The notes under the pieces: generated by a model
The model's input: only the letters and a program-made list of their open reading frames with translations
Database searches by the model: none
Told to the model about the DNA's origin: nothing
Translations under genes and position numbers: made by a program
Source of the DNA: Chrysogorgia sp. JL179-B06
Lineage: Eukaryota; Cnidaria; Anthozoa; Scleralcyonacea; Chrysogorgiidae
NCBI GenBank assembly: GCA_035772405.1
Contig: JAYKKM010000375.1
Span: forward strand, 5,862,001 to 5,926,000
Length of the DNA stretch: 64,000 nt
Reading direction: 5' to 3'
Shown: piece after piece, positions 4,271-63,790 of the stretch
Layout: every line of letters begins with the position of its first letter
Position numbering within the stretch: the first letter of the stretch is position 1

Positions 4271-4601
4271 TTATTGAACTAAAATGAAACCAAATGCTGC
4301 GGTCTCCTTGCATCCATTAATGTTTCCAGAGAATGTGTTAAAATCATTACGACAGTACTTTCCTTCAAACCCGAAACCTATGAAGGAATCTGGAGTAACA
4401 CAGTTATTTTCGTTGTTAGCGATCAATCCCAACCGCAACTTGACATTTTTGCGCATCTTCTTGTTAAACCCTTCACTGTTGCAGTTCTCCTGTAAAGACG
4501 ACCCCTCAATAAGTGTCATCCAATGTTCTTTGCCCAGACTTGTTTCTCGATTTTTACCGCGTCCGCAATCAAATTGTACAGCGAACTTTTTGGGTAGTCC
4601 A
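4271..4601 (-). pseudogene. Decayed second copy of the terminal fibrinogen-like exon
   Basis: This minus-strand stretch is closely similar to the last 350 nt of the exon at 4898-5413. It shares NRETSLG, GFNKKM, LRLG, IANN.NNC, DSFIGFGFEG and the terminal AFGFILVQ-stop. Homology stops abruptly at about 4601, so the 5-prime part and the splice acceptor are missing. Two extra bases near 4559 shift the frame just before the GKNRE segment. A tRNA-like SINE (4665-4738) and ATC repeats separate it from the intact exon. I read it as a tandem duplicate of the gene's last exon that has lost function. Use as an alternative last exon is possible but would need an acceptor that I do not see. Confidence 0.7.
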
Positions 4602-4664
4602 AGAAGTTTACATGAAGTATACATTGAGATACCGACACTCAGATTGAGAGCGAAGGTTACTGAG

Positions 4665-4738
4665 TCTCGGTAGCTCAATGGTGATAGAGCATCTCATCGG
4701 CAATAAGAAGTTTACACATGCATGTTCGATTCCTGAGG
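4665..4738 (+). repeat. tRNA-like SINE head
   Basis: tctcggtagctcaatgg at the 5-prime side and a B box tgttcgattcc are present, with a degenerate anticodon arm (ctcatcggcaa). It belongs to the same family as the copies at 3.7-4.2 kb and 54.5 kb. Confidence 0.55.
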
Positions 4739-4897
4739 ATTTGAGCTCGACGTATCCAAGCTCACACATTCACTACACTAGTGTATATACACAACACATC
4801 ATCGTCATCATCATCATCATCATCATTAATACCTTCATATCGTCATCATTATCATCAATACCATCGTCAATATCATCAACATCATTATTATTCATCA

Positions 4898-5413
4898 TTA
4901 TTGAACTAAAATGAAACCAAATGCTGCCGTATCCTTCTTCACGTCATCGCAAAAATAAACGTTTCCACAGAATGTGTTAAAATCATGACGACAGAAGCTT
5001 CCCTCAAACCCGAAACCTATGAAGGAGTCTGGAGAACCACAGTTATTTTGGTTGTTAGCGATAAATCCCAACCGCAAGTTGGCATTGTTGCCCATCTTCT
5101 TGTTAAACCCTTCTTCGTTGCAGTTCAGCTGCAAAGACGACCCCTGAATAAGTGTCATCCAATTTGCTCTGCCCAGACTTGTTTCTCGATTTTTACCGTC
5201 CGCAATCAAATTGTACAGCGAACTTCCTGGGTAGTCCAACTTTATCCAGTTTGTTTCACCATTTACTGCCATCCCGAGGCAGATCTTGGTAAATGGTGTG
5301 TTCCAGTAGGAAGCCAGTTTGCTTTCTTCTTCAGTTAACCCATTAAGACCTTGGGGACTCGCCTGATAAGTGTTCTTGTCTGACCAAAGAGGCGAGCTGT
5401 ACTTAAACGTATC
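4898..5413 (-). CDS. Last exon, fibrinogen-C-like domain, C-terminal part
   Basis: The exon follows an acceptor (ctatacag, AG at 5415-5414) and starts DTFKYSSPLWSDKNTY. It runs 171 codons to ...AAFGFILVQ-stop. Motifs include KLASYWNTPFTKICLGM, LYNLIADGKNRET, NCNEEGFNKK, LGFIANNQNNCGSPDSFIGFG and several Cys. This continues the GGGWTLVMK domain of exon 8173-8308 in phase 0 across a 2.8-kb intron. The fold is related to fibrinogen C-terminal/intelectin-like domains. Coral proteins annotated as uncharacterized skeletal organic matrix protein 5 end the same way as far as I recall. The role is probably extracellular matrix or glycan binding, which is inferred. The frame is intact. Confidence 0.85.
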   Translation of the reverse strand, partial: DTFKYSSPLWSDKNTYQASPQGLNGLTEEESKLASYWNTPFTKICLGMAVNGETNWIKLDYPGSSLYNLIADGKNRETSLGRANWMTLIQGSSLQLNCNEEGFNKKMGNNANLRLGFIANNQNNCGSPDSFIGFGFEGSFCRHDFNTFCGNVYFCDDVKKDTAAFGFILVQ

Positions 5414-6404
5414 CTGTATAGACAAAGCAATTTTTCATGTCAATAGTTTTATTCTCTTTTCAGAGCAATCTTTTCAATCTCGGGACCAGAACTAACCTAA
5501 CTTCTGAAATATCACATTTTCTCTTTAACAAATAGAAAACATGCCATGCATACAGTATATAGCAAAACGTGTGAAAGTATATGGGAGAACGACAAATAGC
5601 CGGGGGGGACTTCGATTTCTAGTTCTCTCAAACGTTCAAGAGTGCTTTTATAATGGTATGGGAGCAAATAAATAATACAAAACTTTTTTAAATAAGTAAA
5701 AGTTAGGGATAAGGGTCTTAAGCTACGAATTTCTCTCTCGAGAACTTTGATTCCATATTTTTGTATATGCATTATATCATTGGCAATGTGGTTTCTATAT
5801 TGTGCATGAGAAGCATTCCATAGTATACAATTGCTGCAGTAAATTTCTATGAACGACTTATTAATCTACGCCAATATTTTATCCAAGTTTTGTCTGTCGT
5901 AGCAATATAAGAGTTCCGAAAAAGTTGAGCAAAATCAAGAGTAAATCTGCTAGAACGCATCCACCAGGATGAGGAGTGAGACCGATAAATACTGTCATTT
6001 TTTCCAACTCACAGCATATATGTTAAACATGTGAAATGGAAGAGGAGTTGAAACTTCGCTTAATAAAAACCGCTTTCTGAAATATTTTCAGAGTTACCGA
6101 ATACTTTTCCTGCGAAATTATTCTTTGTTGTGTTTTGGTATAGAGTTATAACTTATACATAACTTACGGTAGCTATATAAATTTATGTTATGATTTATAT
6201 CATAAATTCGAACAAACATCGACAATGTGCTCCGCTTTGGGTTCTTATAAACAGAAATAGAGAGATCAGTGCCTTCGGGTAGCTGTAATATAACGTCCAC
6301 AAGTGAATCGCAAGCATAAAGTGTGTTCTTTATAAAGTAATTAAAGGCTTTTTTACTTTCATGGGAAAGTCAAATTAGATAGAAAGAGACGAGGTCACAA
6401 TTTC

Positions 6405-8172: not shown

Positions 8173-8308
8173 ATATGTTCCGTTCATTTTCATCACCAGT
8201 GTCCAACCACCACCTCCACATCCGGGAAGTTCCGACATGTGACAGTAAGCGCTGTAAATCTCAGAATGTTCTTTCAGTTGAAGTTCATACGCACCATCCT
8301 TCAAGCAG
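8173..8308 (-). CDS. Exon, fibrinogen-C-like domain, N-terminal part
   Basis: The acceptor is gatgtttag at 8310-8309 and the donor GTAAAT starts at 8172. The encoded segment is CLKDGAYELQLKEHSEIYS, then AYCHMSELPGCGGGGWTLVMKMNGTY. GGGWTLVMK is the hallmark start of fibrinogen-C-like domains (usual form GGGWTLVxR/K). The join to the 5413 exon is in phase 0 and reads ...NGTY-DTFKY. The exon needs two carried bases at its 5-prime end, whereas the last recognised upstream exon donates one, so a linker exon is missing. The frame is intact and the splice sites are good. Confidence 0.85.
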
Positions 8309-25625: not shown

Positions 25626-25789
25626 ATATTAGTATATTTAGACTAACTTTCTTCTACGAGAAATAAAGTCTTTGACCCTAATATTGTCATCATTTTTCAT
25701 GCTGTTTAATTTATTTTTTATTCACAATTTAATAAGTGGAGCTTATGCAGAAATACTCTGAATTAAGAGCACGATGTTGTTTCCGACCA

Positions 25790-33595: not shown

Positions 33596-33597
33596 AC

Positions 33598-44035: not shown

Positions 44036-44161
44036 CTCTTATATATGCGTATACTTCTTACTATTACTTCTATATGCTTTGTTGAACAATTTAAAGTGTG
44101 GTTTCATCGTATTTTACTGATACAATCGTTGCACGATGGCGCTACAAATACCACGACTTAA

Positions 44162-44592: not shown

Positions 44593-44797
44593 TTAAAAGA
44601 CATTGACAACAAAAATAAGTAGCTTTTAGATCAAAATGTGACTTCATGTGACTTAAATAGCACTAATATAGGGTTTGAAATTGAAAAATGCTGCTAACCT
44701 GAATCATAATTGTCCGCCATGTCATCATTGTTCGCCTGAATCATTGTTCGATGTATTTCGATACGCGTGAACAACCATAACAAAGCGAAATTATTAT

Positions 44798-45194
44798 CAG
44801 GGTTCGTACAGGTTAGGGAGAAACTCAAGGATTCTCAAGGACTTTCAAGGCCTTATATCAAGAAAGTCAAGGAACAAAGGGCTGAAAAGGAGGCTTTATA
44901 TGGAAAGCAGTGGAAAATCACGAAAATGAAAAACTGTTACTTATACTTGCCACTTCAATGAATTTTAAACTACATGAGTCATCAAGGAAGCGAACTCGCG
45001 AAGATGCTGACAAAATTCTCTCTTTCAGAAAATGTCATAAAAATTAAATTATGAAGGATTCAAGGACTTCAGAAAATGTCATAAAAATTAAATTATGAAG
45101 GATTCAAGGACTTTCCACCACTTCTTCATAAATTCATTTTCTTTTTAAAATTCAAGTACATTCAAGTACTAATTCAAGTTCTGTACGAGCCCTG
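44798..45194. mobile_element. MITE with cagggttcgtacagg ends
   Basis: cagggttcgtacagg at 44798 and ctgtacgagccctg ending at 45194 are terminal inverted repeats. The interior has a direct repeat of about 43 bp (cagaaaatgtcataaaaatt at 45020-45110) and caaggactttcaagg motifs. The superfamily is not assigned. Confidence 0.7.
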
Positions 45195-45484
45195 TTACTC
45201 GATTTTCGTGAATGTCTTCCTTTTTCAATTGAACCACAACATTTTATGTTGTCGTTCAGTTGCTTAAACTTCCTAATATCATGTGACTCATACATGTTAA
45301 AAGGAAACGACGAAATCCTACTATTTATTTCTGTAAACTTTTTTATAGATATGAATCCCAAAACATTCTGAATCAGAAAACTTTCTCTGACATGTAAAGG
45401 TAGTCTGATATATACTGTCAAGCTACGATTTACCTCAATACAATATGCACGAGCTGTGCAATATTTAATCACATAAACATGAAT

Positions 45485-45880
45485 AGTTAACAAGCTCGAA
45501 GACTGACTAAATCGGACCTGTACAGCTTTCTGATCGCTGGTGAGAATATAGAGGCTTTGACCAATCATGAGCAAATCAGGTGCTGGATTTCACATCGCAT
45601 TTACACAACTAATGTTCTAGTGAGAATATAGATAGACGCTTTTTGGCGATGATGAGCGATATGGTCGTCAATATGTTACTTACAGGCAGAACTAGAAGAT
45701 TTATTCTAATTCATGTTCACAGCTGTAAAACTAGCTAAATTCAACTTGCAGCTTTCTGATCGTCGGTGAGAAAAAAGACACAGACACTTTAGCCCCTCAT
45801 GACATGATCGTTACAGTAATATGTGACTTATACGCACTGTCGAGATTACTAATTCATGATTGTGCATATAGCTGTCAAGG
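45485..45880 (-). repeat. Tandem array of degenerate tRNA-like units, block 2
   Basis: This continues the array at 43250-44035 (actgactaaatcggacctgt at 45503, gctttctgatcgtcggtgag at about 45747). The two MITEs above lie between the blocks, so they probably split one array. Confidence 0.6.
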
Positions 45881-47139
45881 AAAACGTGTTCACAATTGGA
45901 CAGGAAAACGTGCTTAAAAAAGTAGGTCGTATAAATACATTGACGTAAAATTATAGGACGCGAACTTCAGATCAGTTTTAATATACATACTTTCCGCCCG
46001 TTCAGGCTTCTTCTTCAGTGTACATAAAACACTTGGCTTCAACAATTAATACGGCATAGACATGAATAAATAAGCATACATAATACGATGACAAAGAGCT
46101 AGGTTTTTAAAAAGTAAAAAGTATGTAAAACTTATGTTAAAATAATGTTAAAAATAATTAGTCTTGAAAAGTTCAACTATATATATATATTTATATATAT
46201 ATATATATATATAAATATATACTGTATATATATATAGTTCTGTTTTTGCATATGCTTTTGCACATAACTCATGTGCGCTCGAATAAGCCACTCTTGTATA
46301 AGTAGACGTTTCTCGCAGCTGTTTTTATCGCTTTTGTTGTTAATTGAAACGTCTGTTTATTAAAACTGATCCTATATCTTTTCTGACCCGATCCGTCTGT
46401 ATATTAAAACGCGCGTGCCATATTTTATTCCTTTTACTATAAATATCCAGCGTTGCGTATCCTTTGGGTCCTCCAAGCAAGTAACATCGCCGTTGGTTAT
46501 CCAATTTTCATACGAAGCTATATATGTACATCATTAAACATGACTTTAGGTAAACAACTATGTTTTGGGGCACAGCCCATAGAGTATGATTTATTTATAT
46601 TCGAACAAGCACACAGGGTATAAGGTTGTCCTATTTATCCGAGTCAGAGAATCATGTTTTAAGAGCTCGACTATTCAGTTTATCACTCTTGCGTGAACGG
46701 AAAACCCAACTGATATAGGAGTTCCGAGGTTTAAGGCTTTTATTCGAGAAGACCAAAAGTCTTACGATTTGCTGGTGTTGTTGTAGGCAGCACCTTCTCC
46801 TTAATGATTTTAAATAAAGTTATGTTTAGTGCGTGATCGTTTATATTTATTCTGGCTATTGATGCGCTTATATATATATATATATATATACATGTGTGTG
46901 TGTGAAATGAGCATGTTCAAGCCTTCATCTTCACCACTTTCAACGCGTGTTTTCAGACAACTTTCAAGCTTGACAATTCTCTGATCATTGCAGTTAGTGT
47001 TCAGGGTAAGCAATAAACTGAAAGTAGTATATCGGTCGACGTCGTGCACAGAGCGTGACAATACTGTACGCAACGTCCTGTTTGGATGAAGGACGTCGTT
47101 GAGATTACATTCTTGGGATTAATAATCACACATATAGCA
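45881..47139. other. Left-arm-specific sequence, no gene seen
   Basis: It contains a possible hammerhead-like core on the minus strand near 45985-46020 (ctgaaga, short stem, GGAAAG), a (TA)n tract (46181-46240) and another at 46869-46890. The ORF at 46810-47073 is not recognised. Confidence 0.45.
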
Positions 47140-47810
47140 GTACTTGGCTACCTGTAGCGAACTATACTAGCTGTACCTTCATAAAATATGTATAGGAAGT
47201 CATGAAACATGACAATATGTACAGCATTAAATAAGTTATGGTACTCACAAATTGACTGATACCCTTGTACTTCTTATAGACGAGTCGAAAGGTATAGGGA
47301 TCTCCTGACATATGTCGAATGTCTGTCTTCCTTATGCTGCGAGGCTAATCATGAACTGAAACTTTGAAAAACTCATTGAAAATCAATGAGCAATTACTTA
47401 ATAGGCGATAATAATAACTCTGGGCGGAATATATTACACGCACGCACTATACAGTTTGTATAAAATTAACACGAAACCGGCAGAAAAACAATTAGTATTC
47501 TTTTAAAATATAACATATTGTGGTAGTTTGAAAGCCCTAGACACCACTGAGTCACGGGCAATTAAGATACACTTAAAGTTTTAAGTGTATATGCATAGTA
47601 AAAGTATTTAAAAGCTATATTAATTTTCTGTCGATTTCGTTACAAACTGTAGTCGTAGAGCAACCTCGTGGGGTTGACTGCATGTAGAGTAGCTTCACAT
47701 GACGTCAAAGCGGCCATGTTAGACGGTAACTTCAAAGTTCCGACGTTCAACAAATCGAATCATCACTCTAGGTTTCGGTGGCTTTCCTATATTTTTCGTG
47801 TCGACAACTT
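47140..47810. repeat. Innermost palindrome arm, left
   Basis: It is the diverged reverse complement of 48720-49520. For example, atacccttgtacttcttata with gacgagtcgaaaggtatagg (47261-47300) pairs with 49385-49420. The phrase gtcgacaacttgcaatt inside also recurs as a direct repeat near 48380. No gene is recognised. Confidence 0.75.
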
Positions 47811-48719
47811 GCAATTATTGAATCATCCTTGACGATAGTCCTGTATGTATCGTCCTCGCTTTTTGACAATGCACACACTTCCCAAATTTGCTTCCAGTTG
47901 AGCCTTGAAACAGATTGCATGAAATAGAAGGTTTCGCGTATTCTCCAGTTGGCGAGTAATTGTAAATGCCGATATTGAAAATAATTTATATTAACACAAC
48001 TTTCATGGTTGTACTTTAAAAGTACAAAACTCTCAGAAGCAATTATTATAAAGCAATGTAGTCAGGTAAAACCCTGAAAGGGTGCACAAATCGAACGACC
48101 CTTGAAGCGATTGCCATATAAACAACAAGGCACAAGCCCGTAATCGCCAAATAATCAAACGATCTTAATACTTTCAGTAAACAAAACCTATAGTGCTGAA
48201 TTCAGCAGATTCAAGCGACAATTCCGATATATAATTCATGTAAATCGTACCAACAGAAAATGTTTTTAAAATTTATCGTATCACGTTTCTAAAATGTAAT
48301 ACGACACCTACATGATACGACTGATACGACTAGAGGCCACTGACGTCTGGGTTTCGGTGGCTTTCCTGTATTTTTCGTGTCGACAAATTGCAATTGTATC
48401 ATCCCGTCAGGCCTTGCGAAACTGTAAGGCAATGTTACGTGCTCGATTTTTTCGAGTTCTGACTTTTCGACAGCTTTGCCTTTGATCGAGTTGAGGTGCA
48501 GTTTTCCGACGGTATTGGTGTATTCATGAGTAGTTGATCAGTAATGTTGCTGACAAGGTTTGTCCATGAAGACAGATTAGACGAATTTATCACAGACGCG
48601 AAAAAATGCCGTGTTGACATCAGTACCTAGGAAGTTTGAGTATATAAAAGAACATATAAATATTGTTAATCTAGTAACAGCTTGCTGTTCCAACAACTAT
48701 ACAATACGCAAGTAAGAAA
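47811..48719. other. Palindrome centre
   Basis: This is the unpaired loop between the innermost arms. The direct repeat tttcggtggctttcctgtat occurs at about 47772 and 48350. The minus ORF 48435-48620 (MSTRHFFASVINSS...) has no recognised relative. If the head-to-head genes share a promoter region it would lie somewhere around here, but I see no clear promoter. Confidence 0.5.
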
Positions 48720-49520
48720 CACCGAGTTGATTCGATTTGTTGAACGGCGGAACTTTGAAGTTATACCCCCAAAATGGCCGTGCTTTGACGTCATGTGAAG
48801 CTACTCTACATACAGTCAACCACACGTTGTCAATTGAACTCTTTGTTCTTCCTAAATTCAAAGGAGTTCATCTACCATGAAGTGCTTACTGCGCTTGCGT
48901 ATGTCGCTGCGTTACGATTCTTACGACAAGTGTAAACTAGGCTTAAGTGTGTGCGTAGTGAAAGTAATTTAAAAGCTAATTAATTTTCTGTGAATTTCGT
49001 TACACACTGTAGAGCAACATGAAGTGCTTACTGCGCTTGCGTATGTTGCTGCGTTACGATTCTTACGACAAGTGTAAACTAGGCTTTAAAACTTCAAGTG
49101 TATCTTAATTATACCCGAGGTGTACAAGACCTTATTCTTTCGCACATCCGTGGCTCCGAGGTGTCTATGGCTTTCAAACTAGCACAATGGGCGGGTTGTT
49201 TTAAAAGAATACTAATTGTTTTTTCTGCCGGTTTCGTGTTTATTTTATACAAACTGTATAGTGCGTGCGTGTAATATATTCCGCCCAGAGTTATTATCGC
49301 CTTAATTGAGTAATTGCTCATTGATTTTTAATGAGTTTCGCCTTGCAGCATAAGGAAGACAGATATTCGACGTATGTCTGGATCCCTATACCTTTCGACT
49401 CGTCTATAAGAAGTGCAGGATCTCAGTCAATCTGTGAGTACCCATAACTTAATGCTATACATATTGTCTATGTTTCATAACTTCCTATACATATTGTATG
49501 AAGGTACAGGTATAGTTCGC
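48720..49520. repeat. Innermost palindrome arm, right
   Basis: Partner of 47140-47810. It holds an internal direct repeat of about 55 bp (atgaagtgcttactgcgctt at 48878 and 49018). Confidence 0.75.
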
Positions 49521-50000
49521 TACAGGTAAGGTATACAGGTGTTTTTAAGACTAAGGTACAGGAAGTTAAGGCCCAAACGTTAGATCTCCTACACACTATT
49601 TCGGCATGAGTACACCAACCTTGTATTTGTAGTTTTACACCCCATACTTATACGCGGGATCACTCAAACCAAACACGGGTCTCAAATTTTGTCTCGTTCA
49701 CACTGTACGTAAACACGACGCGAACATAACGAGAACGACGTCTCTTAACCCTTTAAGCCCCAGTATCAACATACAAATTCTCCTTATTGTTCTCCAAACA
49801 TTTCTTATAGTACTAGTTGGGAGAAGTTGTTTCAAAAACATGTCTGTTTGTCTTTGTGATCATTTTCTTTATGAAACTGATTACTAATTGCATGAAGATG
49901 AAATTTTCGCACGAAAAGATATTTTACAATTTTTCTCAAGAGATTGCAAAGATCACAAATATGTAAAATATCGAAACCCCGGATAAGCACTTTAACCTTT
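49521..50000. other. Right-arm-specific sequence, no gene seen
   Basis: Nothing recognisable. On the left the corresponding position is the junction that carries the 4.8-kb insertion. Confidence 0.5.
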
Positions 50001-50819
50001 TGTCAGTTTTGAACGAGTCATTGCTTTAGTTGACTGAGCCATAGTATACGAGTCCTTCAGTTCACACGAGCCAGCAAGTAGTATGGTGGTTACTTACACT
50101 ACTCTATCAACTGGGAGATCCAAATCCTGCATGGTTGGACCACCACTCAGGATCTTAAAATAATTGAGGAGAAACGTGCTGCCTTTGCAACAACATCAGT
50201 AAATGGTGAGACTTTCGCGTCTGCTCGGATAACGACCTTTAATCGACCTTAAATGGATGACTTTCTAAAGTATTGAACGTCATATAAGATCTGCACAAAT
50301 GGTTCGATGCATTCGTAAGACAATCCATTCGATCGCATGTGTTAAAAAGAGAAAAATCGCAGCAAATATATCCTGTGTAAACGGGCCTTTAAGCTGCGTT
50401 TACATATAGTGCAATTAATCGACCGATTTATGGTTTAGATGCATGTTAATGACAAAAAACTGTCAGCGGAATGCTTGGTGGGCTCATAATCCTTGTTCTT
50501 GTACTTACCATTCATCTTCGAGCGTTGGTATAATATCTCTCCCAAGTGAGCGAAGCGAACGAGAAGATAAAATTCGGCCATGTAATGTTCTGATTATATT
50601 GAAATCGATGAAATAGCCATGATGATTACTTCCCCTAGATAACGAAGATAGAAGATAAAAATGATATTTTCGATGATATTATTTAGGAGAAATTATTTAG
50701 GAGAAAACGTCGTATTTCGTATAAATAGATACAATGCATATATATAAAATGCATACCAGTTTGCAATAACACTTCGAAATAGTCATTCGTGTTTTTATAA
50801 GATTCAATAAAACGATATC

Positions 50820-52140
50820 TCATAGATTTCTTAAATAAATAGACACTAGGAATTCTGCTTATATCATGAAGTAAGCTATTGCATAACTTAATACTGCTAA
50901 CTGTGAATGAATTGCCAGCCTCACTGGTGTCGTATCATGGCTATACATATAGGACAGACTAAATTACATTGACCATGCCTAGTCTGTCTTGAGCATGTGT
51001 AGAGTAGTGTGTAATTAACAAAGGCATCAATATATGATGGTGAATCTCCTTTTGGTTTCTTATAAACTAGGACACACTTACTTATTGTGACCTCGTCATA
51101 AAAAGGAATCCAACATAATTTCTGAATATTTTCTATTTGAATATTTTTGCCTGAATCGTGCTTGCAGATTTCCAAATTTGATATTTACATACTAGATTAC
51201 ATTATCATAATTTTGCGGCAACGGGATATATACTTTTACAATATTATCTCACTTGCTTTAATACACTTATTTGATCGTTTTATTGTTTTGACTTGTGCAA
51301 GGTTTTGTAGGGCCTTTCCAGGCCATTATTTAACGTTTTTGTAGATAGAAACGTTCCTGTCTTTATGATTGCTTTGGTGTATATTCACGCCTCGTGTTTT
51401 GCGTCCAAGCACGCCTCGTTTGATTTATGTGTGTTGGCATTTACACATTGATGTTTTTTGTCATTGGTACTCAAATATTGTTGTGGTATACTGCCATGAG
51501 CGGTGTTGTTTGGCATGTCTTGTCTTTTCAGCTTCACTCCAATTGATGAAAATGCCCAGAGATTCATGTGCTCTTTAATTGATTTACCACTGGTTTTGTC
51601 TCATAAGCCAAAGTTACCTAAGCTTTTAACTAAACCAGTTAAATTGCATAATATCGTAGGCGATGGAAACTGTTTATTTCGAGCTCTTTCGTATATTATT
51701 ACCGGGCGACAAGTATGACTTTTTAGAGTAGAATTGCATAATTATCTGTTTCACCAATACTTTGTTATGCTTGTGCTGAAAATGCGAAACTTTATTTTCT
51801 ACACACTTAAAATGCCCGCAGCACTCCCTACCTTGCAGGTATCCTAGTTTAAGAATTATATTTAAATCCTCTTTTGAAAAATAAGTCCAAATTAAACTAC
51901 GACGTACAATATAACTGATTTTATAAGAGCATTATAAATGAAACGTTTTCTTTCACCAATTGACGATTTTTTCTCTCGTTGATTTTTTACCAGGAAAACT
52001 GAGCTTATAAAGCATAACAGAGTTTAATATCTGGCGGTGATAAGAGCGGGCTGTTATGAGACATTGCACGTCAAACATCGTGTGGTGGGATTCTACCGTA
52101 TTTCTCATCTTGACTGTCATCTGGACATCAACCATTGAAG
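50820..52140 (-). pseudogene. Dead LINE ORF2 C-terminal fragment, right arm copy
   Basis: The minus strand reads VDVQMTVKMRNTVESHHTMF (52135 downward) and, after a right-arm insertion at about 51160-51850, LCWIPFYDE and KPKGDSPSYIDAFVNYTLLY. It is the inverted partner of 40470-41170 and equally broken. Confidence 0.7.
51503..51718 (+). CDS. OTU-type cysteine protease fragment in a right-arm insertion
   Basis: The open frame ends in KLHNIVGDGNCLFRALSYII, then TGRQ. GDGNCLFRALS is the catalytic Asp-Gly-Asn-Cys block of OTU deubiquitinase-like proteases. The rest of an OTU domain (the histidine region) is not present, and the frame stops three codons later. A possible splice donor GTATGA overlaps the end. 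OTU domains are carried by some cnidarian transposons as well as host genes, so this may be a transposon fragment or a captured exon. It is embedded in about 0.7 kb that is absent from the left arm. Confidence 0.5.
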   Translation: MLFGMSCLFSFTPIDENAQRFMCSLIDLPLVLSHKPKLPKLLTKPVKLHNIVGDGNCLFRALSYIITGRQV

Positions 52141-52372
52141 GAGATATAGTGGAAACACTCTTTTGTTACGATACAACACTTGAAGGTAAAACTAATGATA
52201 ATAAAGCTTTATTAGACCATTTTAGCATGAAAATACAATGGTATAACGACAGTTAAAAATAGATAGTAAGTTAATATATAATTACGCTACAAAATTATAC
52301 TACTACTTAAAATATAAATCCCTAATGGCCCTTGGAATAAATGACTGCTTGTGCCTCTCTGTCACGGATAAT

Positions 52373-52425
52373 GTTAACGCTCGTCTACGAGTTCGCTTAG
52401 ACCTGAGCGAACTCGTAGACTAGCG
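52373..52425. repeat. Short palindrome beside a TTAA element
   Basis: cgctcgtctacgagttcgct and agcgaactcgtagactagcg form a hairpin with an 8-nt loop, ending directly at the TTAA of the next element. Confidence 0.8.
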
Positions 52426-52429
52426 TTAA

Positions 52430-52903
52430 AGGACATTGGCAACAAAAATTAAGTTTGTCTAATATGAAAGAACTCGTAAAATGATAGAGCAACACCTTTT
52501 ACAACTTTCCCGTATTTTACTTCGTTTTTGAAATATTTCAGTTTGTTTGATATGTAAATGAGATGGTCTCTGACGTCAGGTGTGGGGTGGAGAATTTTCA
52601 CTCATTAAAATATCAGTTACATCTTCAAGTTTGTTCCACAAATTTACTTGAAAATGTGCGTATAACAACTCCCCATGATAATGAACGTTGTAAACTTAGC
52701 AATCACTGAGATATAATACATTTTTTAATGAATGAAAATTCTCTACCCCACACCTGACGTCAGAGACCATCTCATTTACATATCAAACAAACTGAGATAT
52801 TTCAAAAACAAAGTAAAATACGGAAAAGTTGTAAAAGGTGTTACTCTATCATTTTACGAGTTCTTTCATATTAGACAAACTTAATTTTTGTTGCCAATGT
52901 CCT
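52430..52903. mobile_element. TTAA-flanked long foldback element
   Basis: TTAA at 52426-52429 and 52904-52907. The ends aggacattggcaacaaaaat and atttttgttgccaatgtcct are exact complements. About 180-bp arms include cacctgacgtcagagaccat. The arms are about 95% alike by eye, so it is young. It is nested in the dead LINE at 52300-54032. Confidence 0.88.
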
Positions 52904-52954
52904 TTAACATTATCTGGGACAGAGAATCAGAGGCTGTGTTGAAAACAGGCAAGA

Positions 52955-53370
52955 ACCTATAGACGACTTTCACGATCATGCGCAGTAGCAACAAATATTC
53001 AAATTTTCATGATAGGTAAAAACAACTGTTTCAGCTGGAAAGAGCATATTGAAAATAGTAGAAGTGCAAAGTTTGAAAGGAATTGTGTAAAAAAGGAAGA
53101 AGTTACACAAGCAGAAAGTTGGCCATTTCAAAAGGGATTTATTAGTGATTTAATAAGGATTTTGGCTTGGCGGGCGGGCGTTGCACGCCAAGCCAAAATC
53201 CCTATTAAATCCATAGTGAAGAGCAAAACTTCCAAAGTGTGTAGCTTTCGCACTATTTGCCCGATTAGTTTCAAACTTTGCACTTTTGCACTATTTTTAA
53301 TATGATCTTTCTAGCTAAAACAGTTGTTTTAATAAAATTGCTACTGCGCATGACCCTGAAACTCGTCTAT
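52955..53370. mobile_element. Foldback MITE (TA-type target)
   Basis: The ends gacgactttcacgatcatgc with gcagtagcaac and the inverted gttttaataaaattgctact, gcgcatgaccctgaaactcgtc match. The inner arms pair around the hairpin gattttggcttggcgggcgg / cacgccaagccaaaatcc near 53160-53200. TA borders both ends. It is inserted in the dead LINE. Confidence 0.75.
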
Positions 53371-54059
53371 TACATGGGTGAGTCTTATCTTCAATAATAC
53401 GATTTAATTCACGTTTCATTACCTTTTTGCGTCTGACACAAGGTGTTTCGAAATTATCACTGGGGCACCCAATGATAGCTAAACACCTACGCTGCACACG
53501 TTCTAACTCTTGCAATAGATAGTCCGTTATACCACCCCATATTGGTGATGCATACTCTAAAACTGGTCTAATTCTAGAGCGATTACATGGTTATTCCAAC
53601 CTCAATAGGTAATTTTGCCTTCCTGCATTCGCGTAAAATATAGCCCTTTATTAGCTTTAACTGTAATTTCTTCCACATGTGACTATTCCACTTCAGATTG
53701 TTTTGACAACGAACGCCCAATAGTTTAAAGTTATCTACTCTATCAATCTGCTTATTTTCTATGGTTAAACTATCAGGTGGGATACTCTCCCTGAATGAGA
53801 TCCACATATCCTTAGTTTTACCACAGTTCAAGGCCATTTTATTTCGAGATGACCATTCCTCTATACTGTCAAGAACTGTTTCCATTTGGCTTAAACATCC
53901 GACAGGAATAGCTTCGTACAGAGTACAGTCACCAGCGTATTTACATACACCGATACTGTCTTTGATTTCCTGTGGAATGGTATCCTCAAGATCTTCAATA
54001 AGTGCGTTGAACAAGGATGGTGACTTCACCAAAATCCTAAAGTCTCTATTGTAACATCC

Positions 54060-54245
54060 TGTTGAGTGGGTGGGTCGCTACGTACTTATACAAAGGAGTT
54101 TTGTGATTGGTTGATTAAAACAATAAAGCAATAGAAACAACCACAAATAAACCAATGTCCGAACCCTAACCACTTTTGTTTCATGTGTAAGCCAATCACA
54201 AAACCTGTTCATTTTAGGTACGTATTTACCGGAGTGGCTAACACA
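54060..54245. mobile_element. Small MITE
   Basis: cgctacgtacttatacaaag with ggagttttgtgattggttga pairs imperfectly with aagccaatcacaaaacctgt and taggtacgtatttaccg. Non-coding. Confidence 0.6.
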
Positions 54246-54534
54246 TTTGGCTAACACACAAGTACGGTTTATCGTATAACTAGAAAAAATATGAAAGCTG
54301 CTAAGTTCTCAAACGAACTGGATATAATATGAAAAAGAGAAATAAGAAAACTACTCAAACTATTGTACGATGGCGTATAATGACTCGAGTTGACGAAGAC
54401 ATAGTTTAGCCGTTTTTGCACTTTTTGACAGTTGTAACTTGTAACGCTGTTGAAGAGGTGTACTTTATCTTTCTTGTAAGATCAGACAATAAATTACGTG
54501 TTTATAACAATTCGGTATAGCAGTCAGAAATGTT

Positions 54535-54690
54535 TCTGAGTTCTGAACAGGAATTAAACCTGTAACCTTCTGTTATTGCCGGTGAGACGCTTGCTCTTGA
54601 GCTACCGAGACTCAAATCGAGAGAGAAAGTTGCAATGATGTACTGGTTCGATTGATATATGTATGTACTGCCTATGCGGCGGTCACTATA
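54535..54690 (-). repeat. tRNA-derived SINE, single copy
   Basis: Minus-strand tRNA-like head (ttgagtctcggtagctcaag ... ggtttaattcctgttc) plus the body tactggttcgattgatatat seen in the foldback copy at 2234-2690. Confidence 0.6.
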
Positions 54691-55018
54691 TATCAGTCAT
54701 TTGAAAAAATGCTCCCCGAAAATATAGCTCAGAACAAGCTAAAACCTCGCCAGATATTAAGGTAAAGTACAAGTAGCAACTAGGAGAAAGATTGGATTAT
54801 TTTATTCATTAACTATGTCTGCGGGGCGGCGGGGTAGTAAGCCTTAAATAACTATTTAAAAAAATTATTTTAACCCCCCTTCTCATGTGGCAAAATTTCT
54901 TAGACGGTCCCCCCAAAAACATTCAAATTTTATAACCCGGTGGAGAACAGACTTCACCAGGGCCGTACATAAGGATAACACGTGAAATGAGAGTCCTCCA
55001 TTGGCTTGTTGCTTTTAG

Positions 55019-55248
55019 AATTCCGTCTGAATAGTGAAATTCTGGAAACATTTCAGTCCATTGATAAATTGATTTGCATCGTGAAATGCATCGAAGATCC
55101 ATGTTGTAGATCTGTTAATTTCAAACGAAATTCCTTGGAGGAAGCACATGGGGATTGCGACCTTCTGCACGACGTGAACGGAAGTTCCTCAAGCAAACTG
55201 GAAAATAATAAAACGTATCAACATATTCCCCTGATCAATCCTCCGAAG
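55019..55248 (+). CDS. PAN/Apple domain exon (right gene)
   Basis: The acceptor is ttgttgcttttag (AG 55017-55018) and the donor GTAAAC starts at 55249. It encodes FRLNSEILETFQSIDKLICI, VKCIEDPCCRSVNFKRNSLE, EAHGDCDLLHDVNGSSSSKL, ENNKTYQHIPLINPPK. Cysteines match the left copy except for the ten-residue GDC-LL segment, which is missing. Two bases must come from an upstream exon. Sequence identity with the left exon is high and continues about 45 bp upstream and 130 bp into the intron. Confidence 0.87.
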
Positions 55249-55397
55249 GTAAACATAAAATATCATTATAAAATAACGTGTTCAAAAGCTCTGTTCTCAT
55301 TGACTAAATGCAATACGGAATTTACTGTGTATTCCGCTCCTGGATTTTACAAGTTCTCGTTTGAAAAATGACGCCATTGTTATATAATAAAGAGATT

Positions 55398-58300
55398 GGA
55401 CCTCCTTTTCTTATTGGACCTAATTTTCTTATTAGACCTACTTTTCTTATTAGACCTCCTTTTCTTATTAGACCTCCTTTTCTTATTGGACCTCCTTTTC
55501 TTATTGGACCTCCTTTTCTTATTGGACCTCCTTTTCTTATTGGACCTCCTTTTCTTATTAGACCTCCTTCTCTTATTGGACCTCCTTTTCTTATTAGACC
55601 TCCTTTTCTTATTAGACCTCCTTTTCTTATTGGACCTCCTTTTCTTATTAGACCTCCTTTTCTTATTAGACCTCCTTTTCTTATTGGACCTCCTTTTCTT
55701 ATTGGACCTCCTTTTCTTGTTAGACCTCCTTTTCTTATTGGACCTCCTTTTCTTATTAGACCTCCTTTTCTTATTGGACCTCCTTTTCTTATTGGACCTC
55801 CTTTTCTTATTAGACCTCCTTTTCTTATTGGACCTCCTTTTCTTATTGGACCTCCTTTTCTTATTGGACCTCCTTTTCTTATTAGACCTCCTTTTCTTAT
55901 TGGACCTCCTTTTCTTATTAGACCTCCTTTTCTTATTAGACCTCCTTTTCTTATTGGACCTCCTTTTCTTATTGGACCTCCTTTTCTTGTTAGACCTCCT
56001 TTTCTTATTGGACCTCCTTTTCTTATTAGACCTCCTTTTCTTATTGGACCTCCTTTTCTTATTGGACCTCCTTTTCTTATTGGACCTCCTTTTTTCTTAT
56101 TGGACCTCCTTTTCTTATTAGACCTCCTTTTCTTATTAGACCTCCTTTTCTTATTGGACCTCCTTTTCTTATTAGACCTCCTTTTCTTATTGGACCTCCT
56201 TTTCTTATTGGACCTCCTTTTCTTATTGGACCTCCTTTTCTTATTAGACCTCCTTTTCTTATTAGACCTCCTTTTCTTATTAGACCTCCTTTTCTTATTG
56301 GACCTCCTTTTCTTATTGGACCTCCTTTTCTTATTGGACCTCCTTTTCTTATTGAACCTCCTTTTCTTATTGGACATCCTTTTCTTATTGGACCTCCTTT
56401 TCTTATTAGACCTCCTTTTCTTATTGGACCTCCTTTTCTTATTGGACCTCCTTTTCTTATTAGACCTCCTTTTCTTATTGGACCTCCTTTTCTTATTAGA
56501 CCCCCTTTTCTTATTAGACCTCCTTTTCTTATTAGACCTCCTTTTCGTATTGGACCTCCTTTTCTTATTAGACCTCCTTTTCTTATTAGACCTCCTTTTC
56601 TTATTAGACCTCCTTTTCGTATTGGACCTCCTTTTCTTATTGGACCTCCTTTTCTTATTGAACCTCCTTTTCTTATTGGACCTCCTTTTCTTATTGGACC
56701 TCCTTTTCTTATTGGACCTCCTTTTCTTATTGGACCTCCTTTTCTTATTGGACCTCCTTTTCTTATTGGACATCCTTTTCTTATTAGACCTCCTTTTCTT
56801 ATTGGACCTCCTTTTCTTATTAGAGCTCCTTTTCTTATTAGACCTCCTTTTCTTATTAGACCTCCTTTTCTTATTGGACCTCCTTTTCTTATTGGAAATC
56901 CTTTTCTTATTGGACATCCTTTTCTTATTAGACCGGAAATCCTTTTCTTATTGGACATCCTTTTCTTATTAGACCTCCTTTTCTTATTGGACCTCCTTTT
57001 CTTATTGGACCTCCTTTTCTTATTGGACCTCCTTTTCTTATTGGAAATCCTTTTCTTATTGGACATCCTTTTCTTATTAGACCTCCTTTTCTTATTGGAC
57101 CTCCTTTTCTTATTAGACCTCCTTTTCTTATTAGACCTCTTTTTCTTATTGGACCTCCTTTTCTTATTGGACCTCCTTTTCTTATTAGACCTCCTTTTCT
57201 TATTGGACCTCCTTTTCTTATTGGACCTCCTTTTCTTATTAGACCTCCTTTTCTTATTGGACCTCCTTTTCTTATTAGACCTCCTTTTCTTATTGGACCT
57301 CCTTTTCTTATTGGACCTCCTTTTCTTATTGGACCTCCTTTTCTTATTGGACCTCCTTTTCTTATTAGACCTCCTTTTCTTATTAGACCTCCTTTTCGTA
57401 TTGGACCTCCTTTTCTTATTAGACCTCCTTTTCTTATTGAACCTCCTTTTCTTATTGGACCTCCTTTTCTTATTGGACATCCTTTTCTTATTGAACCTCC
57501 TTTTCTTATTAGACCTCTTTTTCTTATTAGACCTCCTTTTCTTATTGGACCTTCTTTTCTTATTAGACCTCCTTTTCTTATTAGACCTCCTTTTCTTATT
57601 AGACCTCCTTTTCGTATTGGACCTCCTTTTCTTATTGGACCTCCTTTTCTTATTGAACCTCCTTTTCTTATTGGACCTCCTTTTCTTATTGGACCTCCTT
57701 TTCTTATTGGACCTCCTTTTCTTATTGGAGCTCCTTTTCTTATTGGACCTCCTTTTCTTATTGGACATCCTTTTCTTATTGAACCTCCTTTTCGTATTGG
57801 ACCTCCTTTTCTTATTGGACCTCCTTTTCTTATTGAACCTCCTTTTCTTATTGGACCTCCTTTTCTTATTGGACCTCCTTTTCTTATTGGACCTCCTTTT
57901 CTTATTGGACCTCCTTTTCTTATTGGACCTCCTTTTCTTATTGGACATCCTTTTCTTATTGAACCTCCTTTTCTTATTGGACCTCCTTTTCTTATTAGAC
58001 CTCCTTTTCTTATTGGACCTCCTTTTCTTATTGGACCTCCTTTTCTTATTGGACCTCCTTTTCTTATTAGACCTCCTTTTCTTATTGAACCTCCTTTTCT
58101 TATTGGACATCCTTTTCTTATTGAACCTCCTTTTCTTATTGGACCTCCTTTTCTTATTAGACCTCCTTTTCTTATTGAACCTCCTTTTCTTATTGGACCT
58201 CCTTTTCTTATTGGACCTCCTTTTCTTATTAGACCTCCTTTTCTTATTAGACCTCCTTTTCTTATTAGACCTCCTTTTCTTATTGGACCTCCTTTTCTTA

Positions 58301-58835
58301 TTGGAAATCCTTTTCTTATTGGACATCCTTTTCTTATTAGACCTCCTTTTCTTATTGGACCTCCTTTTCTTATTGGACCTCCTTTTCGTATTGGACCTCC
58401 TTTTCTTATTGGAAATCCTTTTCTTATTGGACATCCTTTTCTTATTAGACCTCCTTTTCTTATTGGACCTCCTTTTCTTATTAGACCTCCTTTTCTTATT
58501 AGACCTCTTTTTCTTATTGGACCTCCTTTTCTTATTGGACCTCCTTTTCTTATTAGACCTCCTTTTCTTATTGGACCTCCTTTTCTTATTGGATCTCCTT
58601 TTCTTATTGGACATCCTTTTCTTATTGGACATTCTTTTCTTATTGGATCACCTTTTCTTATTGGACCTCCTTTTCTTATTGGACTTCCTTTTCTTATTGG
58701 ACATCCTTTTCTTATTGGACATCCTTTTCTTATTGGACCTCCTTTTCTTATTGGACCTCCTTTTCTTATTGGACATCCTTTTCTTATTGGACATTCTTTT
58801 CTTATTGGATCACCTTTTCTTATTGGACCTCTATT
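55398..58835. repeat. 18-bp satellite array, right arm (about 190 copies)
   Basis: The unit is ttttcttattggacctcc and its attagacc/attgaacc variants, the reverse complement of the left array. It occupies the same intron (PAN to Cys-rich exon). A dozen-copy segment (tattggaaatcctt, then tattggacatcctt) recurs at about 56890, 57045, 58305 and 58415, showing higher-order duplication. Long ORFs of 530-850 codons on both strands are artefacts of the 18-bp period. Confidence 0.97.
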
Positions 58836-59061
58836 TCAAAAAATGTTCTCTGGGAGAATACCTCCGGACCCGCTAATATATATGTTCTAATGCACATCCA
58901 TTTTTTAACGAAAAACGTGCATGTATGATAATGCTTAGGCAATGCATTAAATAGATTAATATTGACGTCATCATTTATTCGGGCAAGTTATACTCCGCCT
59001 CGCATACAAACTTTTACCCGTACGCCTATGGACATTTGGACGTTGTATCTTTTTTCCTTAG

Positions 59062-59170
59062 GAGTACATGATTTGTTGTAATGTCTGTAAAGGAACGGGA
59101 ACACCCAACGCTACATCTGGGATGTGCCATTGTGATGCGACACCCGACGGGAACGCGGCATACGAAAAAG
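59062..59170 (+). CDS. Small Cys-rich exon (right gene)
   Basis: The acceptor is tttttccttag and the donor GTTTGT. It encodes EYMICCNVCKGTGTPNATSG, then MCHCDATPDGNAAYEK(G). Five cysteines and NAT are conserved with the left exon, and most differences lie near the C-terminal end. It joins PAN in phase 0 and donates G to the EGF Asp codon. Confidence 0.83.
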
Positions 59171-59229
59171 GTTTGTATTCTGAAAATCAATAAATAATAC
59201 ACCTCTAAAAGTGCTGCGATATATTGAGA

Positions 59230-59325
59230 TTATTTCTCTCTTTTTCTTTCTCTCTTTTTCTTTCTTTTTCTCTATTTTTGTTTCTCTTTCTCTCTTTTTC
59301 TTTCTCTTTCTGTCTTTTTCTTTTC
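59230..59325. repeat. (TTTCTC)n pyrimidine microsatellite
   Basis: Short inverted counterpart of the 440-bp purine tract at 33598-34040, at the same position relative to the Cys-rich exon. Confidence 0.85.
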
Positions 59326-59384
59326 CTGGTAGTTTTTCAAATGATCTCATGTTTTTGTCATAATTTCATTTTTATAAATCTTAG

Positions 59385-59501
59385 ATATCGACGAGTGCTT
59401 GAACCAACCATGTCATGCAAACGCCACGTGTAACAACACAGTTGGATCTTTCATGTGCACATGTGATGTAGGCTATACTGGTGATGGCTTTAACTGCTCA
59501 G
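59385..59501 (+). CDS. EGF-CA exon 1 (right gene)
   Basis: It encodes (D)[38 protein letters not shown](G). It has all six cysteines, the DIDEC calcium ligand start and the [10 protein letters not shown] hydroxylation and calcium consensus. Acceptor aaatcttag, donor GTATTC, phase 1-1. NAT and NNT are possible N-glycosylation sites. Confidence 0.92.
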
Positions 59502-59589
59502 GTATTCATAACTTTTATCTAATGGACAATTGGAGTCATTGGACATGCAGAGAGTTTCTGCACATGCTGCAATTAATAAATAGTGTAGG

Positions 59590-59924
59590 AAAACTTTGAT
59601 ATATAGAATAACGTTTTGTGCGCAAAATATACTAAGAGGCCATGGCTTTCACTTAGTTCTGAAGTAGGTGTCTGTCCCAATGAAGTACCATCAATGTCAG
59701 ATATGGGTACCAAATGGACATTCTGATTCGTGGTGGACCAGGGGGTGCGGTCTATACTACTCCTGAAAATGTGAATCTTAGGAATACAATTTTCAGCATT
59801 TGGAGAAATAACGCATAGGTATCAAAATTAACTATATTATCAACGACCTGTCCCCTCGCATTCACTGTATCAATTACACTGATAATGGAATTTTAGAACA
59901 GCGAGATTTCCTGGTTTATAGTGC
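59590..59924. other. EGF-module intron sequence
   Basis: It carries gaagtaggtgtctgtcccaa, tgtcagatatgggtaccaaa and the deleted form of the INDLSP repeat (59730-59895). It shows the pre-insertion form of the site that holds a LINE tail at 61187-61620. Confidence 0.6.
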
Positions 59925-60560
59925 CTATTCATAGTGCCTATTTAGTGTACAGTGTGTCTTCGTGGTTTAATATAGTGCCTATTCATATATAGTGCCTATT
60001 TAGTGTACAGTGTGTCTTCGTGGTTTAATATAGTGCCTATTCATAGTGCTTATTTGGTGAACAGTGAGTCTTTGTGGTTTATAGTGCCTATTCATAGTGC
60101 TTATTTAGTGAACAGTGAGTCTTCGTGGTTTATAATGCCTATTCATAGTGTCTATTTAGTGAACAGTGAGTCTTCGTGGTTTATAGTGCCTATTCATAGT
60201 GTCTATTTAGTGAACAGTGAGTCTTCGTGGTTTATAGTGCCTATTCATAGTGTCTATTTGGTGAACAGTGAGTCTTCGTGGTTTATAGTGCCTATTTATA
60301 GTGCTTATTTAGTGAACAGTGAGTCTTCGTGGTTTATAATGCCTATTTATCGTGCTTATTTAGTGAACAGTGAGTCTTCGTGGTTTATAATGCTTATTCA
60401 TAGTGCTTATTTAGTGAACAGCGAGTCTTCGTGGTTTATAGTGCCAATTTATATAGTGCATATTTAGTGAACAATGAGTCTTCGTGGTTTATAGTGCCTA
60501 TTTATAGTGCATATTTAGTGAACAATGAATCTTCGTGGTTTATAGTGCTTATTCATAATT
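59925..60560. repeat. 51-bp minisatellite (about 12 copies)
   Basis: tgcttatttagtgaacagtg with agtcttcgtggtttatagtg units, inverted relative to the left-arm arrays. Located just before EGF exon 2. Confidence 0.95.
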
Positions 60561-60863
60561 CAGTCAAATAATTACTTTTTTCCGAAATAACCTAATCAGA
60601 AATTCAAAAGTCCGCAATTCAAACGTTCGTGATTCAAAATCTCGTGAATTCATGCGGATATTTGCAAACAAATGTTATTCCTCCATCTTATGAAAGACAA
60701 ATATGAACATTTTTGCCAGAAATCTTTAGTTTATTTGGTTAAAAACAATGTGTTTGCTACAGTTCAGTTGGCAACCTATATTTGTAATACTACTTCGCTG
60801 GTAGTTTTTCAAAATTCCAATTATCTCATATATTTGTCATAATTTCCTTTTTATAAATCTTAG

Positions 60864-60980
60864 ATATCGACGAGTGCTTGGACGAACCATGTCATGAAAA
60901 CGCCGCGTGTAACAACACAGTTGGATCTTTCATGTGCACATGTGATGTAGGCTATACTGGTGATGGCTTTAACTGCTCAG
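60864..60980 (+). CDS. EGF-CA exon 2 (right gene)
   Basis: It encodes (D)[38 protein letters not shown](G). Six cysteines and the calcium-binding signature are intact, and splice sites and phase are identical to exon 1. Nearly the whole flanking intron is also duplicated, so the copy arose as a ~1.5-kb tandem module. Confidence 0.92.
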
Positions 60981-61186
60981 GTATTCATAACTTTTATCTA
61001 ATGGACAATTGGAGTCATTGGACATGCAGAGAGTTTCAGCACATGCTGCAATTAATAAATAGTGTAGGAAAACTTTGATATATAGAATAACGTTTTGTGC
61101 GAAAAATATACTAAACAGCAGAGGTGTTAAGAGGCCATGGCTTTCACTTAGTTCTGAAGTAGGTGTCTGTCCCAATGAAGTACCAT

Positions 61187-61620
61187 CAATAATAATAATA
61201 ATAATTTTTAATATTTATATCGCGCAAATTTACATGAGAATATGATCAAATGCGCGTGACAAAATATAATAATAGTGATAATGTTAAAATATGCTAAGAT
61301 AAAAAAAACCAAAAAAAACCGGATAAATCTATGTACAATATGCAATTTGAAAAAGATACGTTTTCAATGAAGACTTAAAACTATTAAAATTACTATCCCG
61401 TCTGATAAAATGCGGCAAAGCATTAAAAACTGTAGGAGCTCCAAAACTAAAAGCTCTATCACCTAAAGTCTTCTTCGTATTTCTGTTATTAGCTGGCTCT
61501 ATCAATAGTTCATTATTTCTACGTAACTGATAAATACTTGGTCTCATCACTGTTACTAATTCACTAATGTATGATGGCGCTAATCCATGTATTGCTTTAA
61601 AAGTCAATATGAGATATCAA
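61187..61620 (-). mobile_element. 5-prime truncated LINE tail with (ATT)n
   Basis: The minus strand reads MTFKAIHGLAPSYISELV, LGDRAFSFGAPTVFNALPHF, FNSFKSSLKTYLF, the end of a CR1/L2-type ORF2. The 3-prime (ATT)n tail is at 61187-61206. A short target duplication atcaat is visible at both sides. The paralogous site at 59690 is empty (ccatcaatgtcagatatggg), which proves insertion after the EGF module duplicated. Confidence 0.82.
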
Positions 61621-61849
61621 TGTGAGATATGGGTACCAAATGGACATTCTGATTCGTGGTGGGCCAGGGGGTGCGGTCTATACTACTCCTGAAATGTGAA
61701 TCTTAGGAATACAATTTTCAGCATTTAATATATTTAATAAATAACGCATAGGTATCAAATTTAACTATATTATCAACGACCTGTCCCCTCGCATTCACTG
61801 TATCAATTACACTGATAATGGCATTTTAGAACAGCGAGATTTCCTGGTT

Positions 61850-62740
61850 TATAGTGCCGATTCATAGTGCCTATTTAGTGTACAGTGTGTCTTCGTGGTT
61901 TAATATAGTGCCTATTCATAGTGCTTATTTAGTGAGCAGTGAGTCTTCGTGGTTTATAGTGCTGATTCATGGTGCTTATTTAGTGAACAGTGAGTCTTCG
62001 TGGTTTATAGTGCCTATTCATAGTGTCTATTTAGTGAACAGTGAGTCTTCGTGGTTTATAATGCCTATTCATAGTGTCTATTTAGTGAACAGTGAGTCTT
62101 CGTGGTTTATAGTGCTGATTCATAGTGTCTATTTAGTGAACAGTGAGTCTTCGTGGTTTATAGTGCCTATTCATAGTGCTTATTTAGTGAACAGTGAGTC
62201 TTCGTGGTTTATAGTGCCTATTCATAGTGTCTATTTAGTGAACAGTGAGTCTTCGTGGTTTATAGTGCTGATTCATGGTGCTTATTTAGTGAACAGCGAG
62301 TCTTCGTGGTTTATAGTGCCTATTCAGTGTCTATTTAGTGAACAGTGAGTCTTCGTGGTTTATAATGCCTATTCATAGTGCCTATTTAGTGAACAGTGAG
62401 TCTTCGTGGTTTATAGTGCCTATTCATAGTACCTATTTAGTGAACAGTGAGTCTTCGTGGTTTATAGTGCCTATTCATAGTGCCTATTTAGTGAACAGTG
62501 AGTCTTCGTGGTTTATAGTGCCTATTCATAGTACCTATTTAATGAACAGTGAGTCTTCGTGGTTTATAGTGCTTATTCATAGTGCCTATTTAGTGAACAG
62601 TGAGTCTTCGTGGTTTATAGTGCTTATTCATAGTGCTTATTTAGTGAACAGCGAGTCTTCGTGGTTTATAGTGCTTATTCATAGTGCATATTTAGTGAAC
62701 AATGAGTCTTCGTGGTTTATAGTGCTTATATTCATAATTC
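61850..62740. repeat. 51-bp minisatellite (about 17 copies)
   Basis: Same unit as at 59925-60560, before EGF exon 3. The VNSESSWFIVPIHS ORFs are artefacts. Confidence 0.95.
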
Positions 62741-63034
62741 AGTCAAATAATTACTTTTTCCGAAATAACCTAATCAGAAATTCAAAAGTCCGTAATTCAA
62801 ACGTTCGTGATTCAAAAGCTCGTGAATTCATGCGGATGTTTGCAAACAAATGTTATTCCTCCATCTTATGAAAGACAAATATGAACATTTTTGCCAGAAA
62901 TCTTTAGTTTATTTGGTTAAAAACAATGCGTTTGCTACAGTTCAGTTGGCAACCTATATTTGTAATACTACTTCGCTGGTAGTTTTTCAAATGATCTCAT
63001 ATATTTGTCATAATTTCCTTTTTATAAATCTTAG

Positions 63035-63151
63035 ATATCGACGAGTGCTTGGACGAACCATGTCATGAAAACGCCGCGTGTAACAACACAGTTGGATCTT
63101 TCGTGTGCACATGTGATGTAGGCTATACTGGTGATGGCTTTAACTGCTCAG
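63035..63151 (+). CDS. EGF-CA exon 3 (right gene)
   Basis: It encodes (D)[38 protein letters not shown](G). Only one residue (Met to Val) differs from exon 2. Donor GTATGC. No further exon is recognised before 64000. Confidence 0.92.
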
Positions 63152-63414
63152 GTATGCATAACTGTTATCTAATGGACAATGAAGAAATCTTTGTGAATTG
63201 GACATGCAGAGTGTTTCTGCACCTGCTCCAATTAATAAATAGTGTAGGAAAACTTTGATATATAGAATAACGTTTTGTGTGAAAAAATATACTAAACAGC
63301 AGAGGTGTTAAGAGGCCAGGGCTTTCACTTAGTTCTGAGGTAGGTGGCTGTCCCAATGAAGTACCATCAGTGTCAGACATGGTTGCCGAATGGACATTCT
63401 GATTCGTGGTGATG

Positions 63415-63790
63415 TTATAATTTACTCTATTACAATATAACACTGCTTCGCTTCTACGAGAAAGAAAGCCTGTGACCTTATTTTATAATTATTTGTCGAG
63501 CCTCTCAAGGCTTTTGCTAAGACCTTGCTCCCGCCAGAGCTGCTGTATAGGAAATCTCCAGCTATATTTTCACCATGTCCAATTAGCAAAATCGTCTCTG
63601 CAGGTTTGTTTTTATGAAAAGCTGCTAAAATCCCATAATCAGTGTAACTCATACAGTCAATGCCAGGGGATAGGTCGTTACTAATATAGCTGAATTTGCT
63701 ACTTATGAATTATTTCTCCAAATGCTGAAAATTGTATTCGTAAGATTCACATTTTCAGGAGTAGTATAGCCCGCACCCCCTGGCCGGAAA
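63415..63790 (-). repeat. Dispersed intronic repeat with intact 76-codon frame
   Basis: Full copy of the INDLSP...GHGENIAGDFLYS...SKVLAKALRGSTNNYKIRS element on the minus strand, the best-preserved open frame of the family. Not recognised. Confidence 0.55.

Follow-up and report, generated by a model that had tools for sequence, protein, structure and literature searches.

Mirrored exons and blocks in the window

The window, a stretch of 64,000 nucleotides from the anthozoan Chrysogorgia sp. JL179-B06, contains two sets of related exons placed head to head. In each arm one PAN-like and one Cys-rich exon are followed by phase 1-1 EGF exons; all have consistent splice sites and phases and read away from the centre. 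The exons and the tandem arrays within the arms are as follows.

38235..38494, minus strand: left PAN-like exon, 260 bases, including 30 bases without a right equivalent (splice sites, frame, alignment, tblastn to the Dendronephthya protein P0033)
55019..55248, plus strand: right PAN-like exon, 230 bases (splice sites, alignment, tblastn to P0033)
34985..38080, no strand: left 18-bp array of 172 units, putatively intronic and downstream of the PAN exon
55395..58837, no strand: right 18-bp array, 190 units, same consensus, two frame-shifting indels
34103..34211, minus strand: left Cys-rich exon (splice sites, alignment)
59062..59170, plus strand: right Cys-rich exon (splice sites, alignment)
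31920..32021, minus strand: left EGF exon 1, 15 bases missing, one Cys replaced by Ser
30296..30397, minus strand: left EGF exon 2, missing the same 15 bases as left EGF exon 1
59385..59501, plus strand: right EGF exon 1 (splice sites, Pfam)
60864..60980, plus strand: right EGF exon 2, a hybrid of unit 3 (5′ side) and unit 1 (3′ side)
63035..63151, plus strand: right EGF exon 3 (splice sites, Pfam)

The window was compared with itself unmasked, with tandem arrays masked, and in a more sensitive run on the central parts. Blocks on either side of about 48.25 kb pair in inverted orientation and in mirror order (self-BLAST, BLASTN), and all seven non-array blocks have E ≤ 2e-28 in the array-masked comparison.

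25622..47762, gene strand minus: left arm of the putative inverted duplication (BLASTN mirror blocks)
47763..48727, no strand: central spacer of about 1 kb without an inverted match, holding one end of a short direct-orientation match
48728..64000, gene strand plus: right arm of the putative inverted duplication, cut by the window end (BLASTN mirror blocks)
47667-47762 and 48728-48826, inverted: mirror block 1, central (BLASTN)
47149-47557 and 49148-49528, inverted: mirror block 2, central (BLASTN)
41568-42289 and 50048-50728, inverted: mirror block 3 (BLASTN)
40851-41237 and 50726-51135, inverted: mirror block 4 (BLASTN)
40374-40794 and 51845-52267, inverted: mirror block 5 (BLASTN)
38081-38543 and 54970-55394, inverted: mirror block 6 (BLASTN)
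34985-38080 and 55395-58837, mirror order: the 18-bp arrays, between blocks 6 and 7
34041-34222 and 59051-59232, inverted: mirror block 7 (BLASTN)

Outward of block 7, purine tracts and then EGF units follow in both arms. The midpoints of the two central blocks lie at 48.25 and 48.34 kb, while those of the outer blocks spread from about 44.7 to 48.5 kb because of arm-specific insertions and repeated EGF units. The self-comparison thus confirms the mirror order around about 48.2 kb that the original prediction had described. The extent given there, 4.3–63.8 kb, proved too wide: the mirrored part covers about 25.6–64.0 kb, and the left 4.25–5.4 kb have no mirror copy within the window (self-BLAST). 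EGF exons had also been listed among the mirrored features, and they are present in both arms, with recognisable counts of two on the left and three on the right, plus a degenerate start on the left.

Both arms have been heavily edited. The left 42.3–47.1 kb have no substantial counterpart on the right, and the left 38.5–40.4 kb and the right 52.3–55.0 kb do not match each other. A LINE (26162..29582, plus strand) is present in the left arm only, between two copies of a 36-bp repeat (one mismatch) that is probably its target-site duplication. The body of this LINE has no match in 59.0–64.0 kb, and its flanks match 63.31–63.94 kb. It carries two overlapping frames (26129-29310, plus strand), and the N-terminal part has DIETQPGP, which resembles a 2A-type motif apart from a change at one key residue. 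Part of the mirrored 40.4–42.3 kb had been read as a LINE tail shared by both arms. Against 162 proteins, the mirrored stretch gave weak LINE-like matches on the left (best E = 5e-6) and none on the right at E ≤ 1e-3, which leaves that reading plausible and thinly supported.

Several further repeats lie in the window. A second LINE (15834-20295, plus strand) has a 1033-residue frame with endonuclease and reverse transcriptase, preceded by one that matches no Pfam family; the top identity is 69% among 120 listed of 380 relatives (7992 candidates scored). A near-palindromic element at 52425-52908, 85% self-complementary over about 490 bp and holding two of six TGACGTCA sites, is probably a fold-back transposon. 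Rfam matches of tRNA type score slightly above the gathering threshold at 3670-3745 (minus), 4118-4178 (plus) and 10835-10912 (plus). Repeats near the first two recur at 54.5–54.7 kb, so a tRNA-derived short repeat is likely. An 88-bp tandem repeat (6397-6931, 6.1 copies) is probably recent, given its 98% matches.

Gene models and their relatives

Four further features on the strand of the left gene may extend its model.

22935-22970, minus strand: degenerate EGF start (tblastn, alignment)
21781-21990, minus strand: F5/8C-like fragment (Pfam E = 0.0012, below cut-off)
8176..8304, minus strand: exon matching the start of the relatives' C-terminal domain, putatively of the left gene (tblastn E = 6e-14 to P0018)
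4901..5412, minus strand: putative last exon of the left gene, encoding the C-terminal domain; its start is placed at an acceptor-like site

Pfam finds EGF_3 in the right gene model at E = 1e-31 in three stretches, and EGF_3 (3.5e-8) and EGF_CA (2e-12) in the left model. The PAN_4 matches, with E = 0.011 on the right and 0.0054 on the left, fall short of the curated threshold, and at E ≤ 1 no Pfam family matches the joined C-terminal domain. The end of the presumed last left exon has a direct duplicate (4253-4602 and 4879-5239, 86%), which is still open to a similar C-terminus.

When the left model, extended by the presumed last exon, served as query, 42 proteins matched at E ≤ 0.001. Those that are named as to source come from octocorals and stony corals, and 11 of the 42, all from the octocoral Dendronephthya gigantea, are called 'uncharacterized skeletal organic matrix protein 5-like' (SOMP 5-like). 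For 20 of the 42 the match covers 47% of the query, roughly what the C-terminal exon contributes. The longest contig has the same length, 2,866,738 bases, for nine of the proteins, which may point to clustering of the family there. The best partner of the PAN exons among these proteins is P0033 of Dendronephthya (tblastn, E = 2e-8 left and 1e-11 right), which has EGF and TLDc domains; the TLDc domain stands at its end, unlike the C-terminal exon found here. In P0024 of Oculina, PAN and EGF occur together with a C-terminus like that at 4.9–5.4 kb. For this reason the left PAN, Cys-rich and EGF exons and the C-terminal exons are read as probably one gene, whose product would be secreted. The homologue of the SOMP 5-like C-terminal domain lies on the left at 4.9–5.4 kb, 25 kb from the EGF exons, and its joining to them is a predicted one; any right counterpart would lie beyond the window end.

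The locus resembles SOMP 5-like and other coral PAN-EGF proteins, as octocoral proteins bearing the first of these names match its presumed last left exon. The available excerpts of a red-coral skeletome study name EGF-like and fibrinogen domains and make no mention of USOMP, apple or PAN domains (PMC7853314). Those of an octocoral calcification paper make no mention of EGF, USOMP, matrix protein 5 or tandem (PMC11959691).

The exons are not clearly less diverged between the arms than introns and flanks, and coding constraint is thus without support. The PAN exon differs at 14/230 positions, compared with 1/49 and 8/145 in its flanks, and the Cys-rich exon at 11/109, compared with 4/62 in the downstream flank. 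The former estimate of about 10% for the Cys-rich exons therefore agrees with the count. Over 112 codons of the PAN and Cys-rich exons, dN/dS was 0.064/0.135 (NG86) and 0.076/0.086 (YN00), values that do not separate weak from no constraint and that exclude the 30 bases present in the left PAN exon alone, the choice of which half of this apparent repeat to omit being arbitrary.

Divergence and remodelling of the arms

Arm divergence was counted over the seven mirror blocks, with arrays and EGF units excluded. Blocks 1 to 7 differ at 8/96, 36/377, 108/630, 32/381, 35/416, 23/424 and 15/182 positions. All seven together are not homogeneous (P = 1e-8), the third standing at 17%; this block, whose ends align well and whose middle stretch does not, was dropped post hoc. 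The other six form one divergence class (149/1876, 7.9%; P = 0.38 for homogeneity).

Heterozygosity in cnidarians amounts to a few per cent. A divergence of 7.9% is therefore more than two haplotypes of a single locus should show, and the earlier view that the arms are too old for a duplicated-haplotype join is supported. An assembly artefact could also take another form, in which two paralogous loci, in place of two haplotypes, were joined head to head at repeats. The long tandem arrays and transposon pieces in the arms are the kind of sequence where assemblies fail, and two paralogous loci would be compatible with the divergence, the left-only LINE and the EGF numbers. For two haplotypes, however, the divergence, the one-arm LINE and the unequal EGF numbers exceed expectation. 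Taking both forms together, we regard an artefact as unlikely.

Gene conversion between the arms, which the original prediction had proposed, would leave blocks of low divergence. The lowest value is 5.4%, and no mirror block is near-identical. One pair of EGF units (31649-32323 and 62730-63411) is closer, at 31/652 or 4.8% against 7.9% in the six blocks (Fisher P = 0.006), which leans weakly towards exchange there. Block-by-block comparison, suggested as a check for conversion tracts, thus yielded this one pair and no near-identical block.

The 18-bp arrays bear on the same question. They hold 25 unit types on the left and 23 on the right, and the eight in common make up 77% of the left and 86% of the right units. 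The longest run of units common to both is seven, a length matched by 149 of 300 shuffles. This pattern fits arrays of common origin that would then have turned over independently. With no near-identical block and no array order shared beyond chance, recent arm-to-arm conversion is not supported. The reading frames through the arrays are long and open, as a stop-free 18-base unit permits. A coding role was considered and judged unlikely: the indels in the right array shift the frame, and in no one frame do the four positions of the unit that vary most all fall on third codon positions.

The EGF units have been remodelled. Right unit 2 is a hybrid: its 5′ side is like unit 3 and its 3′ side like unit 1. 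A single breakpoint fits 24 of 25 sites, several of them adjacent and so not independent, and none of 5000 permutations equals this fit; two sites particular to unit 2 were dropped as uninformative. The pairwise distances (2.7% for units 1 and 2, 3.8% for 2 and 3, 8.3% for 1 and 3) agree with a hybrid origin. On the left, the purine tract abuts the block that follows the EGF unit directly, whereas an EGF unit intervenes on the right, so either the left arm has lost a unit or the right arm has gained one. A tree of the five EGF units supported neither inner branch. The left copy looks degraded, since the same 15 bases are missing from both of its EGF exons and a Ser replaces a Cys in one of them. 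A 51-bp minisatellite lies beside the EGF units in both arms (22992-24870, 32324-32603, 59896-60557 and 61829-62729) and may promote their unequal exchange.

The centre and the origin of the arrangement

The PAN exons of the two arms are 16.5 kb apart. Two short matches at the centre (47767-47828 with 48346-48404, and 47581-47652 with 48943-49012) run in direct and not inverted orientation; the centre is therefore locally rearranged. The sequence TGACGTCA occurs six times against 0.6 expected, twice in the mirrored central blocks and four times elsewhere. Since four of the six sites lie outside these blocks, TGACGTCA is no evidence for a shared promoter. A non-exhaustive scan for first exons with a hydrophobic, signal-peptide-like start and certain phase-1 donors gave none on the left and two candidates on the right, neither mirrored. 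Patterns typical of bacterial promoters and terminators occurred at the centre at chance level only, and no phage match was found.

The mirror layout, the closer EGF-unit pair and TGACGTCA in both central blocks would agree with a pair of working genes that stand head to head, use one promoter at the centre and undergo conversion between their arms. Against it stand the four further TGACGTCA sites, the failure of the scan to find a mirrored first exon, the homogeneity of six of the seven blocks and the absence of a near-identical one, an array run of a length that shuffling reaches, and the damaged left EGF exons. The shared promoter of the original prediction is thus unsupported, and we consider such a pair very improbable. 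We give hardly any credence to the bolder idea that a bidirectional control region occupies the mirrored centre and drives joint expression of two diverging matrix-type genes, with EGF number tuned separately in each copy by unequal crossing-over.

The locus is very probably an old inverted segmental duplication of an octocoral-like PAN-EGF gene segment, whose copies stand head to head and later diverged and were remodelled. The copied segment would have carried the 5′ part of a PAN-EGF gene and perhaps the whole of it, along with the 18-bp array in its intron and a LINE-like tail; an inverted copy would have come to lie beside the original, presumably in a single founding event, with a spacer of about 1 kb between them. 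The two would then have diverged by about 8%, each arm acquiring insertions of its own, while unequal crossing-over altered the number of EGF units and the left copy accumulated damage.

Comparable arrangements are known. According to the excerpts available for each source, coral tandem duplicates are likewise adjacent, diverged gene copies, and gene conversion does not appear to be common in corals, in the authors' judgement; inverted or head-to-head copies such as those found here go unmentioned there (PMC10236652). Inverted duplication has produced palindromes in the springtail Folsomia candida, where they make up 11 of 15 within-scaffold blocks (PMC5490193). These are collinear inverted blocks within a scaffold, as here, some with changes in gene copy number, but two of them hold eight and five gene copies per arm, compared with one gene segment per arm here, the right one cut (PMC5490193). 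Palindromes of mammalian sex chromosomes also have large inverted arms with genes; arm conversion is documented there and unsupported here (PMC6790999). A term search of the literature found no inverted duplication of a skeletal organic matrix protein gene and no head-to-head inverted duplication in a cnidarian.

This is an ordinary kind of gene duplication and not a new mechanism. Its value is as a readable local example of a coral extracellular-protein gene that was, on this reading, duplicated in inverted orientation and then remodelled exon by exon. The hybrid EGF unit would be a trace of unequal crossing-over, and the satellite arrays, if of common origin as they appear, illustrate how such arrays can turn over independently.
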